DNA from: a virus
Direction: 5' to 3' (one strand)
DNA: 37,620 bases
IMG/VR virus record: IMGVR_UViG_3300022707_000476
Location: 1 to 37,620 of that record
The notes beneath the pieces are model-generated. The model ran no database searches and had not been told where the DNA came from. It worked only from the letters and a program-made list of their open reading frames with translations. The translations under genes were made by a program, and so were the position numbers. Position 1 is the first letter of the stretch. Each line of letters opens with the position of its first letter. This document shows positions 1,741 through 6,784 of the stretch, in pieces.

Positions 1741-2545
1741 CACTCCCCCCTTCCTTTAGGTCGTTCGGTTGTGGGGAGTTAAACATAGGATTGTCTAATT
1801 CAGAGGGGTCAACATACGAATCCTTTGCAAGTTTCCTACTGGTCTTGGCTACCCGCTCACTACGTTCGTTCTCACCCCCCTGCCCTGCATCATCGCTTAG
1901 AGCGAGTGTGTTAAGATCACGCATTCTATCTTGAAGACGGCAATAGACATCTTTGTCATTGACAAACTCTTTGAACGCATCCGATCCATCAAACGAGTTC
2001 ACATAATCACCAAATAAATTGAGATATGTCAGAAGCTCATCTCTTAACCCTCTGAGCCGTTCGACGGTAGCGGTTAGGGCATTAACCTTAGCGGCCACAG
2101 GCCTGGCAGACTTGATGGCAGATATTCGCCACTCTTCCAGCCCTCCCACCCTCTCCTGGCCCTCTGCGAGTCGGGTATCCTTATCGTTCAGAAGGGCAAC
2201 GAGGCTGGATGATTCAAGTTTATTCAAATCTGATACTATTATACGGTTATGGCTATCCCGAATCCAAAAGGCCCCTTCGCCATCCCCCTCCACCCGATAC
2301 TCAGGGGAGCTACCCGCAACTGGCTTGGGAGAGTTCATCTGGCTATGTAAATCGTTATACTTACCACACCATTTGTTCGCTTCTTTTTGAGCTAATTCAA
2401 TCTCAGCCTTCAACGCCTCACGCTCATCGAGGATGGCGAGGAGTGCCTCAAAGATTTCCCTGTAAGCGTGTCGATATGGAGCAAATGAGACTCCCGCATT
2501 CCTCCAGGCATCACGCAACTTCTTTTCTAATGTTCCAGTATCCAT
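1733..2545 (-). CDS. Hypothetical coiled-coil protein (270 aa)
   Basis: Not a recognised family. Residues about 30-70 (ILDEREALKAEIELAQKEA) and about 150-195 look like amphipathic coiled coils. Between them lies a small globular part with FWIRDSHNRIIVSDLN. The C-terminus is acidic and low in complexity (DDAGQGGENE, then PSELDNPMFNSPQPND). The ATG at 2545 has AGGAG eight bases upstream. The short segment between this gene and the methyltransferase locus (2546-2595) holds only this ribosome site and leader. Confidence 0.75.
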   Translation of the reverse strand: MDTGTLEKKLRDAWRNAGVSFAPYRHAYREIFEALLAILDEREALKAEIELAQKEANKWCGKYNDLHSQMNSPKPVAGSSPEYRVEGDGEGAFWIRDSHNRIIVSDLNKLESSSLVALLNDKDTRLAEGQERVGGLEEWRISAIKSARPVAAKVNALTATVERLRGLRDELLTYLNLFGDYVNSFDGSDAFKEFVNDKDVYCRLQDRMRDLNTLALSDDAGQGGENERSERVAKTSRKLAKDSYVDPSELDNPMFNSPQPNDLKEGGSDG

Positions 2546-2595
2546 AGTTCACACTCCTATGTTAATTTCCAGACTCGCTATTATACGTTCAGGGG

Positions 2596-3873
2596 TCATT
2601 CTCTCACCTCAAGAATTCCCGGCACCATGCCGCCATCCCATCCATTGCCAATGGTTTTAAGTCGGTTGGCGCGGTTGGTCGTTTTGGATGTTAGCCTTGG
2701 GATCATCGGTTCTTTCCCCCTGTGCGCTTCTTCCATGCGAGCTTGTTCCCACAACTCCGAGAACAGGTCATTTCTCTCGGTCTCTTGAAAGTGAATTCCC
2801 TGCCACAGAAGGCACATTTCTTTTTCGTTTTGCGACCGGCCCACCTTTTGTCGGCGTTCATCTTCCCATGCCTTGAACGACACGCTGTTGAACAGACCGT
2901 TGAGTTGCGAGTCCGCTTGGGCTGGAACTTCTTGTTGCATACTACACATACCGCTGGCTGGACAGAAACACGGTCCCCCAACTCTTGATGAATTTTGATA
3001 TGATGTTTTTGACAAAGGACCGCTACATTGCTCGGTGCGTTGTTGTTTGGGTTGCCGTCCTTGTGATGTCGTTCCAGGTTCTTTGTCGAACCACATACAA
3101 TACATTTTGTCGCCTTGAACTTTCTTTGGGCTTCCCGATGTCCGGCGTTTTTTGTTCTCATTCAAAGACCTCCATAATTTGAACCCCAATATGCTGATTG
3201 GCTCAAGGGATGTCAAGCCCAAAGGCCAATTCATTAGCCACTCAACCCAACAGGGGTTCAACCGCCCGCCATCTTTCGTAGGATTTACCATTGCACCTAA
3301 CCGGAGATACTTCTTTCCCCCCGACATTTGATACCCCTCTTGATTCAATGCTTCTGGAGTTGGAAACATCCTGACTGCTAGAGCTAGCGTCGGTCTCTTT
3401 GCTGCTCCTGGTGAATCGCTTTGATTGAATCTTGTCTGTACTCCCGCATCGGGGGTAGGCCACAATCCAGAGTCTCTTCCGCTTGTGCCTTGCACCACAG
3501 TCAGACGCCCCGACAATATCCCATTCACAATCGTACCCGTCTTCGGCCAAGTCCCCGAAAATTCGTCTAATGTATCTGTGAGCAAGGAGACCTGGTACGT
3601 TTTCCAGCAGGACATATCTCGGTCGTATGATGCGAATGGCGTCCCTTGTTTCTGGCCAGAGGTTTCGTTCATCGGCCTCGCCAAGCTGATTACCGGCAAC
3701 TGAGAATGGTTGGCATGGGAATCCGGCAGAGAGCCAATCCACTTTTCCAGTAAAGAGTCTTGCGTATCTGGCGTTGAATGTCCGAATGTCATCGAAGATA
3801 GGTGCGTCTCCGAGAACTCCATCTCGTATTCTTGCCCGGATAATTGATCTACAATACTTTTCAATTTCGACAT
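2596..3873 (-). CDS. Overlapping +1-frame ORF with C-terminal methyltransferase-like motif (425 codons)
   Basis: This frame is open for 425 codons. It overlaps the cytosine methyltransferase gene over 3242-3873 and the HNH gene over 2703-3161, in a different frame from both. Recognisable motifs are SCWKTYQ (residues 88-94), FSGTWPKTG (105-113), GLWPTPDAG (136-144), FPTP (170-173), LNPCWVEWLMNWPLG (205-219) and RLKTIGNGW near 402-410. The last resembles methyltransferase motif IX/X, which the other frame lacks. From memory, proteins with WPTP and NPxWVEWLMGxP are often annotated next to phage Dcm genes. An AGGA lies nine bases before the ATG. It could be a separate protein, the C-terminal part of the methyltransferase reached by a frameshift, or partly a shadow; residues about 238-390 are almost certainly shadow of the HNH gene. 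Confidence 0.5.
   Translation of the reverse strand: MSKLKSIVDQLSGQEYEMEFSETHLSSMTFGHSTPDTQDSLLEKWIGSLPDSHANHSQLPVISLARPMNETSGQKQGTPFASYDRDMSCWKTYQVSLLTDTLDEFSGTWPKTGTIVNGILSGRLTVVQGTSGRDSGLWPTPDAGVQTRFNQSDSPGAAKRPTLALAVRMFPTPEALNQEGYQMSGGKKYLRLGAMVNPTKDGGRLNPCWVEWLMNWPLGLTSLEPISILGFKLWRSLNENKKRRTSGSPKKVQGDKMYCMWFDKEPGTTSQGRQPKQQRTEQCSGPLSKTSYQNSSRVGGPCFCPASGMCSMQQEVPAQADSQLNGLFNSVSFKAWEDERRQKVGRSQNEKEMCLLWQGIHFQETERNDLFSELWEQARMEEAHRGKEPMIPRLTSKTTNRANRLKTIGNGWDGGMVPGILEVRE
2703..3161 (-). CDS. HNH endonuclease with two extra zinc ribbons (152 aa)
   Basis: A clear HNH nuclease: CIVC (20-23), LERHHKDGNPNNN (29-41, catalytic His pair 32-33), then LCQKHHIKIH (49-58). Two further four-cysteine modules follow (CVVC with CSTAC; CAFC with CSRSC), typical of free-standing phage homing endonucleases that bind DNA through added zinc ribbons. 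GGAGG lies seven bases before the ATG. The gene sits between the LNPCWVEWLM and RLKTIGNGW coding segments of the methyltransferase locus, so it looks like a homing-endonuclease insertion into that gene. The flanks are too short to hold a group I intron. Confidence 0.88.
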   Translation of the reverse strand: MRTKNAGHREAQRKFKATKCIVCGSTKNLERHHKDGNPNNNAPSNVAVLCQKHHIKIHQELGDRVSVQPAVCVVCNKKFQPKRTRNSTVCSTACRSRHGKMNADKRWAGRKTKKKCAFCGREFTFKRPREMTCSRSCGNKLAWKKRTGGKNR

Positions 3874-3958
3874 AAACTATCGTCCTATAATCTGGAAAGA
3901 TATTTTGAAAGCAAAGCTCACCGATGGCACTACCTGAATATAGAGATACTCCATTCAC
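3242..3958 (-). CDS. DNA (cytosine-5) methyltransferase, motifs I-VIII, C-terminally truncated (238 aa)
   Basis: It methylates C5 of cytosine in DNA using S-adenosylmethionine, probably to shield phage DNA from host restriction. Visible motifs: SAM-binding start SLYSGSAIGELCF (5-17), motif IV GFPCQPFS with catalytic Cys82, motif VI ENVPGL (119-124), motif VIII GARHKRKRLWIVAY (155-168). The frame then stops at WRAVEPLLG (230-238), before motifs IX and X, so it is shorter than a complete family member. After the TGA, the same frame reads VANELAFGLDIP, resembling the usual continuation VANGVPFRVDRL. The start is a GTG overlapping the previous stop (GTGA), with AGGAG eight bases before it. Whether this frame alone gives an active enzyme is doubtful. 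Confidence 0.85.
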   Translation of the reverse strand: MNGVSLYSGSAIGELCFQNIFPDYRTIVYVEIEKYCRSIIRARIRDGVLGDAPIFDDIRTFNARYARLFTGKVDWLSAGFPCQPFSVAGNQLGEADERNLWPETRDAIRIIRPRYVLLENVPGLLAHRYIRRIFGDLAEDGYDCEWDIVGASDCGARHKRKRLWIVAYPRCGSTDKIQSKRFTRSSKETDASSSSQDVSNSRSIESRGVSNVGGKEVSPVRCNGKSYERWRAVEPLLG

Positions 3959-4119
3959 TTCACCCGCTCCTGTTTGACTGTGAGGTTGGTCATCTTATTA
4001 TTGATTCTATCTTTAACCCAGCAAAAGGCTTTCCATAAAACGTACCCCACGCCTGCCAATATCCAGTAAGCAGCTATAAATAAAATTATGCAGCCCCACA
4101 AAAATAATAATCCTGTCAT
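3955..4119 (-). CDS. Small membrane protein (54 aa)
   Basis: Residues about 3-36 are strongly hydrophobic (LLFLWGCIILFIAAYWILAG), giving one long or two short transmembrane helices, followed by a basic cytosolic tail (KDRINNK, KQERVK). The ATG at 4119 has AGGAG eight bases upstream and overlaps the stop of the resolvase gene by ATGA. Its own stop overlaps the methyltransferase GTG start. No function recognised. Confidence 0.65.
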   Translation of the reverse strand: MTGLLFLWGCIILFIAAYWILAGVGYVLWKAFCWVKDRINNKMTNLTVKQERVK

Positions 4120-4715
4120 AGCAATATCTCCTGTTTTTGTATTACCCATTTATTGATCCGCTCTCGATACTCATAGGCCGACTGGCAGCTTATCAGCACA
4201 CCAGGCGGGTTGAACTCGTTAGCCCAGACCATTCCGTCCGGTTCGATTCGCCAGACCGGTTGGTTGTCGTCCCAGAAGAGCACACCATCAGGATAAAGTC
4301 CGAGCACTTGCTTTTTCCTGCTATTACCGAGAGCGTTGTTAATAGCATAATCCATGTTATCCCAATCCGGCTTCTGCGACGGAAACTCCAACTTACACAC
4401 CTTCGACTTTGGCATAAAGAATAGCGTCCCGATCGCCACCGGATGATTCCTTGGGAATGGCTCTAAGTTGTGATCGAACATGAATTGAGTTACCGACCGG
4501 GCAACATGAGCCATCCATTGGCGTTTGTAGCCTTCGTCATACCGCTGCGGCTTAATCTTTCCGGGCACCTTCCGGGTCCGCCAGTCCATATCAATCAGCA
4601 TCGAGTGCTTCCCTCTGGTACTCATTATCTTCTTGGGGAATGGCTGGGGATCTCCCACGACCCGAATTCTCATTAGGCCATCCGTGGCCAACGATGAACG
4701 ATCCTTGTCATACAT
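4116..4715 (-). CDS. rusA: RusA-like Holliday junction resolvase (199 aa)
   Basis: RusA-family enzymes are Mg-dependent endonucleases that resolve Holliday junctions and branched DNA before packaging. The diagnostic acidic cluster is here: KPDWDNMDYAINNAL (about residues 114-128) followed by PDGVLFWDDNQPVW (about 142-155), matching the family DxDN and DD(S/N)Q signature. An N-terminal extension of about 60 residues makes it longer than E. coli RusA. AGGA lies nine bases before the ATG. It overlaps the gene above by 8 bases and the membrane protein below by 4. It follows the two replication genes, a common order in lambdoid-style replication modules. Confidence 0.87.
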   Translation of the reverse strand: MYDKDRSSLATDGLMRIRVVGDPQPFPKKIMSTRGKHSMLIDMDWRTRKVPGKIKPQRYDEGYKRQWMAHVARSVTQFMFDHNLEPFPRNHPVAIGTLFFMPKSKVCKLEFPSQKPDWDNMDYAINNALGNSRKKQVLGLYPDGVLFWDDNQPVWRIEPDGMVWANEFNPPGVLISCQSAYEYRERINKWVIQKQEILL

Positions 4716-5442: not shown

Positions 5443-6232
5443 TTTTGGCCGCTTCCTCTCTACGAATCATTTCACCGGCTATCTTGGCATTGCGGGCGGT
5501 TGCGATGGCTTCCGGGGATAGTAGCTCACCTTGGGCCTCTCTGTTCTGATACCCACCCTCGATTATCTTCGTGAAGTATCTGGGTTTCATAATGAAATCG
5601 AAGTCACACCTCCAATTTTCGTGCCCCTCAGTTGGCGGAGTTCGGCCAGCTAAGAAGTCTGAGGCTTGAACCGTGACGAAGAACCGATTCCACCAATCCA
5701 AATTCGGTTGCTGTTTCCACCGAGATTGCATTGTCTTTAATCTGGCACCTTCAATCGACTTGATCTCTGGTAACGAAGTACATATTTCATTGAAAAGATT
5801 CATGATTTTTTGAGCGGGGAAATTACTTTTCTCTGGTCTGGTCTGCTCTAGTCTGGTCTGGTCTGGTCTGGTAGGCTGTAATTTTGTAGCACCCTTGCGA
5901 CGTTTTTGTTGTACCTCTTTTACGTCAAGTTGTTGCCATCTTATGTAGTTAGGTATATCTATAACCACGGTTCCGTCTGCATTAATGTTGTAGGTGATCA
6001 GCATTTCCGCAGCATTAATGCTCAATGCTTGTAGTAACTTCACCGTAGTACGTGCATCGCAGGAGCAAGATTGCGACAATTCTGCAACATTTTTGTACCA
6101 CACTTGACCGTCGTCTCGCTGATCCTTACAGGCCAGAAGCAATTGTAAATACATTCCCCTAGCATTTATTTTGAGCGACAGGAACGTCCGGTTGGTCCGA
6201 AGCGTGGTCCAAAGTTTGAGATATCCAGCCAT
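5429..6232 (-). CDS. Phage replication initiator, O-like (267 aa)
   Basis: Residues about 1-105 look like a winged-helix DNA-binding domain (MAGYLKLWTTLRTNRTFLSL, then KDQRDDGQVWYKNVAEL). Residues about 108-135 are a basic, Gln/Thr-rich linker built of five-residue repeats (QTRPD, QTRLE, QTRPE). The C-terminal part carries RLKTMQSRWKQ, LDWWNRFFVTVQASDFLAGR and CDFDFIMKPRYFTKIIEGGY, typical of phage replisome-organiser C-termini. Such proteins bind origin iterons and recruit the helicase loader. The linker DNA is itself a pentamer repeat tract and may be the origin. The start overlaps the HNH stop by one base (TAATG). Confidence 0.82.
   Translation of the reverse strand: MAGYLKLWTTLRTNRTFLSLKINARGMYLQLLLACKDQRDDGQVWYKNVAELSQSCSCDARTTVKLLQALSINAAEMLITYNINADGTVVIDIPNYIRWQQLDVKEVQQKRRKGATKLQPTRPDQTRLEQTRPEKSNFPAQKIMNLFNEICTSLPEIKSIEGARLKTMQSRWKQQPNLDWWNRFFVTVQASDFLAGRTPPTEGHENWRCDFDFIMKPRYFTKIIEGGYQNREAQGELLSPEAIATARNAKIAGEMIRREEAAKNAKQ
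5831..5875. repeat. Nine tandem pentamers, candidate origin iterons
   Basis: On the plus strand the tract reads as nine pentamers: six are GTCTG, with variants CTCTG, CTCTA and GTAGG. It sits in the linker-coding part of the initiator gene, where lambdoid phages keep their origin iterons. Five-base repeats shift frame each time, so the protein shows a five-residue repeat. It may be an origin, or simply a simple-sequence expansion in a tolerant linker. Confidence 0.6.
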
Positions 6233-6711
6233 TATTTGAATGCCCTGTTTTCGGAGTGACTGATTCTATGACAAGATGGACAAAGCCAAATAATCTCAAG
6301 TGGTTTATTATAGTCTTCGTGATGGGCATGCATCTTTACCTTTTTCGGAGAAATACCGCAATGAGCACAAAGACCTACAATTAATTTACCTGTTGCGATT
6401 GCATATTTAACTTTGCGGTGTGCACGATGAACAATTGGGTTTTGTTGACGGCGTTTTCTCTGTTGGATTGTTCGGCTGGGTTGGTTCACTTTTTGATATA
6501 TATCAATCTGCGGTTTGTTTTTATTTCGCCATTCCGAGTGTATTTTTCGCTGTGTAGTATAGTTCTGGAGATACCATGACTTGCTATACCGAGAACAACA
6601 ACTTTTACACTTCCCCTGCCTGCCTGTTTTCTTGCTCTCATCTTTATGGAAGCTATGTACGGGTAAGGAATCATTGCAGGCCGAGCACTGTATTCGGCTC
6701 CGACTACTCAT
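6232..6711 (-). CDS. HNH endonuclease with N-terminal zinc ribbon (159 aa)
   Basis: An N-terminal zinc module (CSAC at 9-12, CKSC at 35-38) is followed by a basic helical linker. The HNH domain comes next: LCAHCG, then MHAHHEDYNKPLEIIWLCPSCHRISH (catalytic His pair in HAHHEDY, metal-binding Cys and His at the end). This build is common in free-standing phage HNH proteins. I chose the ATG at 6711 because GGAG lies eight bases upstream; the frame extends to 6750 without a ribosome site. It is the first gene behind the promoter at 6826-6854, after a structured leader of about 110 bases. Confidence 0.85.
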   Translation of the reverse strand: MSSRSRIQCSACNDSLPVHSFHKDESKKTGRQGKCKSCCSRYSKSWYLQNYTTQRKIHSEWRNKNKPQIDIYQKVNQPSRTIQQRKRRQQNPIVHRAHRKVKYAIATGKLIVGLCAHCGISPKKVKMHAHHEDYNKPLEIIWLCPSCHRISHSENRAFK

Positions 6712-6733
6712 TATTGCGTCTCCAAAAAGCCGA

Positions 6734-6784
6734 TAGACGGCAGACAACAAACAGTATGTCCGACGTGGGACGTCTGTCCGTCTA
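6734..6784 (-). promoter_or_regulatory. Structured 5' leader of the replication transcript
   Basis: In the RNA, TAGACGG and CAGAC near 6772-6784 pair with GTCTGCCGTCTA at 6734-6745, giving a 12-bp stem with one bulged A. Inside it GTCC (68-71 side) pairs with GGAC around a six-base loop at 6758-6771. The element lies between the predicted transcription start (about 6819) and the HNH ribosome site. A role in attenuation, RNA stability or autoregulation is inference. Confidence 0.5.

Follow-up and report, generated by a model that had tools for sequence, protein, structure and literature searches.

In the window analysed here, a 37,620-base IMG/VR virus record (IMGVR_UViG_3300022707_000476), 1.36 kb of the minus strand is shared by three open reading frames (ORFs), one per frame, which we call alpha, beta, and HNH. 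With a probability of about 80%, alpha and beta represent overlapping genes for the two separate subunits of a cytosine-5 DNA methyltransferase. The computed support for this reading consists of selection on both frames, a frame switch at the target slot, the order of motifs, the existence of fused relatives, and a slot that is disordered in the model of a related alpha. Alpha (frame 0) would fold as the S-adenosylmethionine-binding catalytic domain with motifs I–VIII, and beta, whose translation would begin at a start of its own within alpha, would supply target-recognition modules and motif IX, and in the window also motif X. The two proteins would assemble into one active DNA-methylating enzyme, in which the WPTP modules of beta would recognise the DNA target, and the methylation would probably serve as protection from host restriction. 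The gene of a putative homing-type HNH endonuclease appears to sit between beta motifs IX and X in the third frame, with beta kept open across it.

The alpha ORF (3242–3958, minus strand, as are all window features below; 238 amino acids, GTG start) has the features of the catalytic half of a cytosine-5 DNA methyltransferase. It matches PF00145 over residues 2–200 (E 3.3e-35) and contains motifs I, IV (PCQ), VI (ENV), and VIII (RxR) of this family in order. Motif IV, SAGFPCQPFS, with the catalytic cysteine, is at 3701–3730, and its P, C, and Q are each conserved at 1.00 in an alignment of 167 sequences. Motif VI, LLENVPG, is at 3590–3610, and motif VIII, GARHKRKRLWIVAYP, at 3452–3496, where it overlaps the GLWPTP of beta. 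The alpha terminator is a TGA that arises within the beta codons for WVE, in the shadow of beta WVEWLM.

The beta ORF (2596–3873; +1 relative to alpha, 425 amino acids, ATG start) extends 646 nucleotides (nt) past the alpha stop and is composed of an N-domain, WPTP-type modules, motif IX, an insert that is the shadow of the HNH gene, and motif X. It matches phrog_1008 (E 8.6e-18), a family with the name DNA methyltransferase, and phrog_26627 (E 2e-7). Two segments of its N-domain, YDRDMSCWKTYQ (3592–3627) and FSGTWPKTGTIVNG (3520–3561), are at places where the codons of relatives are fixed for the +1 residues Y-D (columns 189–190) and T-W-P (columns 255–257), respectively. The first module of the target slot starts with GLWPTP (3451–3468) and the second with MFPTP (3355–3369). 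They are followed by motif IX, GGRLNPCWVEWLMNWP (3223–3270), which includes LNPCWVEWLM and at which the codons of relatives are fixed to suit the +1 reading, and by motif X, NRLKTIGNGW (2638–2667). The IX- and X-like segments are thus in the +1 frame in order, and single-chain enzymes agree with them by motif and order, with no significant support from Pfam or PDB. The first-pass annotation had placed both ORFs at these coordinates, had seen the X-like RLKTIGNGW in the +1 frame, and had paired GLWPTP with RLWIVAYP, EKWIGSLPDSHANHSQ with KVDWLSAGFPCQPFS, and LNPCWVEWLM with VEPLLG-stop-VAN as shadows of each other; in all these points it was correct. It had also credited the +1 ORF with a Shine–Dalgarno (SD) sequence of its own, of which we found only a weak SD-like AGGA ahead of an internal ATG (context ...ataggacgatagtttATG).

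The open +1 frame recurs among relatives of alpha. Relatives were gathered by alignment of the methyltransferase frame alone (the best 80 of 599 viral and the best 80 of 578 bacterial candidates), and the +1 frame was counted as open when a +1 run took up at least 85% of the codons between motif IV and the stop of alpha. It was open in 77 of the 80 viral and in 50 of the 80 bacterial relatives, which bears out the earlier suggestion of a recurring double-coded gene, and the frames shared a long stretch, with a median of 829.5 nt among 132 open loci. As the loci fall into related groups (at 50% identity, 167 loci form 18 clusters, 10 of them open), the 77 open viral loci do not correspond to 77 independent events. 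The threshold was missed by L005 and L006, among the six phage loci examined at the outset, and by the viral loci L039, L049, and L081. In the six phage regions first examined, the methyltransferase reading was in frame −1 relative to beta, on the same bases. In one of them, L006 of a marine phage, the beta frame holds motif I of alpha, frame −1 holds the remainder of alpha, and a stop precedes beta, as if a frame slip or a rearrangement of the start had occurred. Searches by tblastn retrieved 74 phage records with beta and 12 plasmid records, and the viral scan with P0001 gave no match.

According to the first-pass annotation, homologues with a complete methyltransferase and a broken +1 frame would speak against double coding. 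Such homologues exist: in 17 of the 167 loci, the +1 run covers less than 65% of the span (strictly closed loci, which we used as negatives), and the fused enzymes described below also have a broken +1 frame, their C-terminal half being in the methyltransferase frame. The strictly closed loci, however, mostly look like other groups of methyltransferases, because 13 of them contain neither a PTP nor a WVEWLMG-like +1 pattern and three contain a PTP match only (L039 was outside this scoring).

The same association was seen from the side of beta, with a DNA pattern for NPxxWVEWLMG that is blind to alpha. In 55 of the 80 IMG/VR loci analysed in this way, the catalytic PCQ motif was in frame −1, and beta was open past PCQ in all 55. 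The remainder comprised 14 loci in which the alpha reading was recognised by eye, 9 at contig ends, and 2 in which the frame slips internally; among the cases recognised by eye, L179 shows alpha only from motif VI on, where its contig begins. None of the 80 loci had a catalytic motif in the same frame as WVEWLMG, and we rejected the existence of standalone or same-frame WVEWLMG genes among these IMG/VR loci on this basis, single-frame genes having been found only in actinophage records. In L187 and L200, a frame slip separates the beta N-domain from the remainder near a glycine-rich stretch, which may be a sequencing error or a real frameshift site.

Stop codons are strongly depleted in the +1 frame. 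As compared with synonymous-codon shuffles within alpha, 87 loci contained 119 +1 stops versus 383 expected, and 1001 stops versus 937 expected in the +2 frame; in the alpha overlap of the window, there were 0 +1 stops versus 3.5 expected (P 0.003). The 196 neighbour ORFs of the same loci, which served as a control, contained 1707 +1 stops versus 1724 expected, and 15 of them reached P 0.05 for the longest run. By segment, the numbers of observed and expected stops were 16 and 119 in the alpha N-terminus, 1 and 118 in motifs IV–VIII, and 2 and 74 in the target slot; this test leaves out 21 of the 87 loci, in which motif VIII was not located by pattern, and its slot values come from the 44 loci that have the motif X pattern as well. 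When each 50% cluster was represented by one locus, the 10 open clusters had 2 stops versus 31 expected (the lowest of 200 shuffled totals was 21), and the eight closed ones had 89 versus 112. The depletion in the 87 loci and in the dereplicated set, together with the normal neighbour ORFs, rules out a chance shadow, and the normality of neighbour genes rules out a general codon or dinucleotide bias of the genomes. Clearly, the open +1 frame is real, and it is confirmed to be more than the work of chance.

In support of selection on both frames, conserved alpha residues of the motif IX region have codons fixed in the form that is needed to read N, P, V, L, M, G, P, and W in the +1 frame (GAA 75/76, CCC 84/86, GGT 63/64, GCT 68/69, GAT 74/75, GGG 106/112, GCC 75/75, and GTG 69/72). 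At one column of this region alpha has D (74), H (18), N (17), or Y (1), and the last two bases of the codon are constantly AT, the start of a beta Met codon. In the open loci, the most variable codon position is position 3 in motifs I–VIII (129 of 161 columns) and position 1 in the IX region (10 of 16 columns); in the 17 strictly closed loci, position 3 stays the most variable one in the IX region (41 of 51 columns). The better conserved frame also changes along the locus, as was apparent from the 63 of the 132 open loci in which the slot could be located. In motifs IV–VIII, frame 0 was better conserved in 900 of 900 random pairs; in the target slot of the same pairs, the +1 frame was better conserved in 732, frame 0 in 110, and the +2 frame in 58. 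Of the options put forward in the first-pass annotation, two proteins from one DNA stretch is thus the one supported by stop depletion, codon constraint, and recurrence. A decayed methyltransferase accompanied by a chance shadow ORF would fit the window alpha, which ends ahead of motifs IX and X, but the +1 frame contains these C-terminal parts, and an open +1 frame, codon constraint, and a frame switch that recur across relatives are not what decay would leave behind. The stop depletion and codon constraint exclude this option, and we give it next to no credence.

The assignment of beta to the same enzyme follows from the distribution of motifs. The catalytic motif was in frame −1 in 134 loci, and 17 of them fit neither of two forms by pattern. 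In form B (108/134), alpha contains motifs I–VIII and motif X, and beta contains the slot and motif IX; the betas of this form mostly finish near the alpha end. In form A (9/134, including the window), alpha ends after motif VIII or at the shadow of motif IX, and beta contains the slot, motif IX, and motif X. The motif IX of beta resembles, with the same spacing, the canonical segment LTPRECxRLMGFPD. The beta slot holds one to five WPTP-type modules, which recur at differing positions in divergent loci. The module pairs were in the beta frame in 105 of 105 cases, although this tally is partly circular, because the pairs were picked by beta-frame similarity. Modules may insert elsewhere in beta, judging from L192 and L237, in which the +1 frame contains a WPT/WSTP-type module ahead of the PCQ motif and not in the usual slot. 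In L007, a WPSP-type module is between beta motifs IX and X, the interval that is used by the HNH gene in the window.

Actinophages provided both split and joined enzymes. Their form A pairs are annotated as adjacent or briefly overlapping methylase genes (Catdawg 6/5, Vash 32/33, Jamun 39/40, ExplosioNervosa 83/82, and Eagle 78/77); farther upstream, the +1 frame of these pairs is interrupted by stops, which shows that not all such pairs are deeply nested. In ShiLan gp70 and Derg gp4, motifs I–VIII, LPTP modules, and motifs IX and X are all in one frame, and Papez gp46 has in one frame motifs I–VIII, a short slot without a module motif, and motifs IX and X. The protein of the Mycobacterium phage ShiLan is like the window pair in its LPTP modules, motif IX (FSEWMMGWPAGWV), and motif X, which follow in the same order, but differs in that everything is in one frame and one protein. 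A check proposed in the first-pass annotation, for motif VIII and the WVEWLM part in a single frame, was therefore positive in three genes. Since these three actinophage enzymes join both halves in one frame, beta would correspond to the C-terminal portion of one enzyme with alpha. The Pfam coverage of the fused enzymes ends at about motif VIII. In ShiLan gp70 (L310, 502–1671), the +1 frame also contains a beta-like N-domain and LPTP modules, in the stretch that covers and follows motifs VI–VIII, as if they were a trace of a split form, or as if a second product were made.

These data also bear on the idea that beta is an overprinted protein unrelated to methylation, e.g., a regulator or an anti-restriction protein. 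The beta N-domain, which has no assigned fold and no Pfam match, would suit such a protein. However, the C-terminal part of beta is what is fused to motifs I–VIII in ShiLan, Derg, and Papez, beta of form A carries the sole motif X found, and the catalytic half is upstream in frame −1 in 69 of the 80 WVEWLMG loci, which makes an unrelated function of beta highly improbable.

Another route to a complete enzyme would be programmed +1 frameshifting after motif VIII, leading to a conventional single-chain methyltransferase, as could be supposed from the fused single-frame homologues and from form A alphas, that of the window included, which end either shortly past motif VIII or where the shadow of motif IX lies. 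Frameshifting would not need the +1 frame to be open upstream of motif VIII, and yet stops are depleted there (16 versus 119 and 1 versus 118 in the two upstream segments), and codons upstream of motif VIII are fixed for +1 residues. Moreover, 40 of the 132 open loci have their first +1 ATG at a shared position (−72 codons relative to motif IV), and alpha of the commoner form B has a motif X of its own. As frameshifting leaves the +1 openness and constraint upstream of motif VIII unexplained, we consider it unlikely. Separate translation of beta, as the two-subunit reading supposes, is consistent in part with the arrangement of starts. Alpha starts with ATGAATGAG, with the beta ATG four bases after the alpha ATG, in 21 of the 132 open loci, and with a variant of this sequence in 18; in 13 loci, the beta ATG overlaps the alpha GTG in ATGTG, and the remaining 80 starts are of other or unclassified types. 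An SD-like match of at least 4 bases precedes the first +1 ATG in 80 of 129 open loci (no control set).

Structure models are in line with the division of labour between the two proteins. In the alpha model of L073, the mean predicted local distance difference test scores (pLDDT) of 10-residue blocks were 82–98 for residues 1–170, 37–56 for residues 171–280, which correspond to the slot and the IX shadow, and 66–93 for residues 281–307, which correspond to motif X. The best matches of this model were M.HhaI and M.HaeIII, over about 168 columns. The alpha profile aligned to M.HhaI up to residue 185 only, and among the 60 chains listed, one (3qv2) aligned over residues 3–285 of the profile. As the slot is disordered in the L073 model and the M.HhaI alignment ends at residue 185, alpha is, in the model, without a folded target-recognition domain (TRD) of its own.

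The HNH ORF, which was absent from the first-pass annotation, is at 2703–3161 (152 amino acids). It uses the third frame, is placed between motifs IX and X of beta, and has GGAGG upstream of its ATG. It is homologous to phage HNH endonucleases (phrog_1271, E 8.5e-15; phrog_15471, E 4.8e-11), with Pfam matches only below the cut-off. A homologue, identical with it in 52 of 117 residues, is at the identical place in L046. Across the HNH gene, beta has 0 stops versus 7.8 expected in the window and 0 versus 7.4 in L046, and in neither case was any of 5000 shuffles as low. Among 14 other HNH relatives, from outside confirmed alpha/beta loci, 13 did not show significant depletion in that frame (P at least 0.066). 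We rejected a catalogued intron behind the HNH insert, as the sole match of an Rfam scan of 2400–4200 was a long non-coding RNA region below the gathering score (E 0.24). On balance, we think it probable that the window belongs to a large unrecognised class of phage and bacterial cytosine methyltransferases, with nested genes for a catalytic subunit and for a modular +1 target-recognition subunit, in which an exchange of modules would alter specificity and the alpha slot would be a disordered linker, and that the window and L046 hold three selected proteins in three frames.

Elsewhere in the window, a second ORF, at 6232–6750 on the minus strand, is HNH-like by eye (CSAC...CKSCCSRY...CAHCG...HAHHEDYNKP). 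The PHROG matches among ten large ORFs include a terminase, a portal, a major head protein, RecT, and a replication initiator.

A two-subunit cytosine methyltransferase as a kind is already known. The M.AquI genes overlap only briefly, the small subunit of M.EcoHK31I, an enzyme related to M.EaeI, is encoded within the large one in another frame, and M.HhaI, the best solved-structure relative of alpha over motifs I–VIII, is a monomer with its own TRD and motifs IX and X. The window and eight other form A loci share with M.AquI, by motif, the partition into I–VIII and IX–X, which are in two polypeptides in M.AquI as described in an excerpt of PMC3404938; the loci studied here differ from it in the length of the overlap. 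Form B has the motif partition of M.EcoHK31I, for which the same excerpt gives motifs I–VIII and X in the large subunit and only motif IX in the small one, and which an excerpt of PMC3439449 terms naturally split. The window differs from M.EcoHK31I in that motif X is in beta, not in alpha, and that an HNH gene is added in the third frame. According to PMC3404938, M.SssI divided between motif VIII and the TRD yields fragments that complement each other.

Several results weigh against the two-subunit reading. The tested beta proteins did not have a meaningful Pfam match (the best, unrelated ones had E 0.09–0.16), the comparison of the beta profile with PDB gave no sequence below E 1, and PADLOC assigned no family to beta. 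A profile of the beta IX–X region reached a plant DRM methyltransferase only below the threshold (E 0.15), alongside a pilin match of E 0.14, the DRM alignment taking in both the IX-like and the X-like part. The AlphaFold model of beta was poor (mean pLDDT 56.9, predicted template modelling score 0.25). No SD-like match of 4 bases precedes the first +1 ATG in 49 of the 129 open loci. The codon test over all columns was modest, with a mean chi2/df of 3.5–5.4 in open and 2.6 in closed loci (n=35), and its ranges overlapped with those of the 17 strictly closed loci; from this weaker result, the constraint seems to be concentrated at particular sites. In the predictions reported in the PMC3404938 excerpt, the TRD of M.EcoHK31I is assigned to the large subunit, not to the small one, in contrast to the loci studied here, where the slot is conserved in the beta frame, a comparison made by description. 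Finally, the HNH gene of L301 (2375–2905), outside a confirmed alpha/beta locus, has 1 stop versus 7.3 expected at offset +2, so the openness of beta over the HNH gene is strong but does not amount to a proof of three-frame selection. We rejected L301 as a third stacked case, its catalytic-motif match being false; the low number of +2 stops in it possibly comes from another overlapping ORF.

In DNA phages and bacteria, cases in which two conserved proteins overlap over a long stretch of one strand are few and disputed. The one studied here recurs in divergent lineages and passes the tests of stop depletion, codon constraint, and frame switch. In a literature search, from which subscription papers were mostly absent, we did not find a description of widespread nested alpha/beta coding, of beta-frame selection at the slot, or of the three-frame stack. 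In databases, the two readings match separate families under one name (phrog_363 and phrog_1008, both "DNA methyltransferase"), and the choice of the annotated reading varies from record to record: it is the +1 reading only in SOVA965 and phPA-G, alpha only in S72, S9-5, ABMM1, and BUCT711, and both in Bloom and K1ind2. Of the loci first examined, L001 and L003 are annotated in the +1 reading only, L002 and L004 in alpha only, and L005 in both. In the Escherichia phage K1ind2 (L173), two nested DNA methyltransferase genes are annotated, at 1026–1955 and 1114–1911, in frames 0 and +1. As records annotate one or the other reading, the assignment of methylomes to genes and predictions of host specificity may miss half of the enzyme. 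If alpha and beta are indeed the subunits of one methyltransferase, the layouts of M.AquI and M.EcoHK31I would be united as two forms of one arrangement, and these loci would offer a natural system in which to study split methyltransferases.

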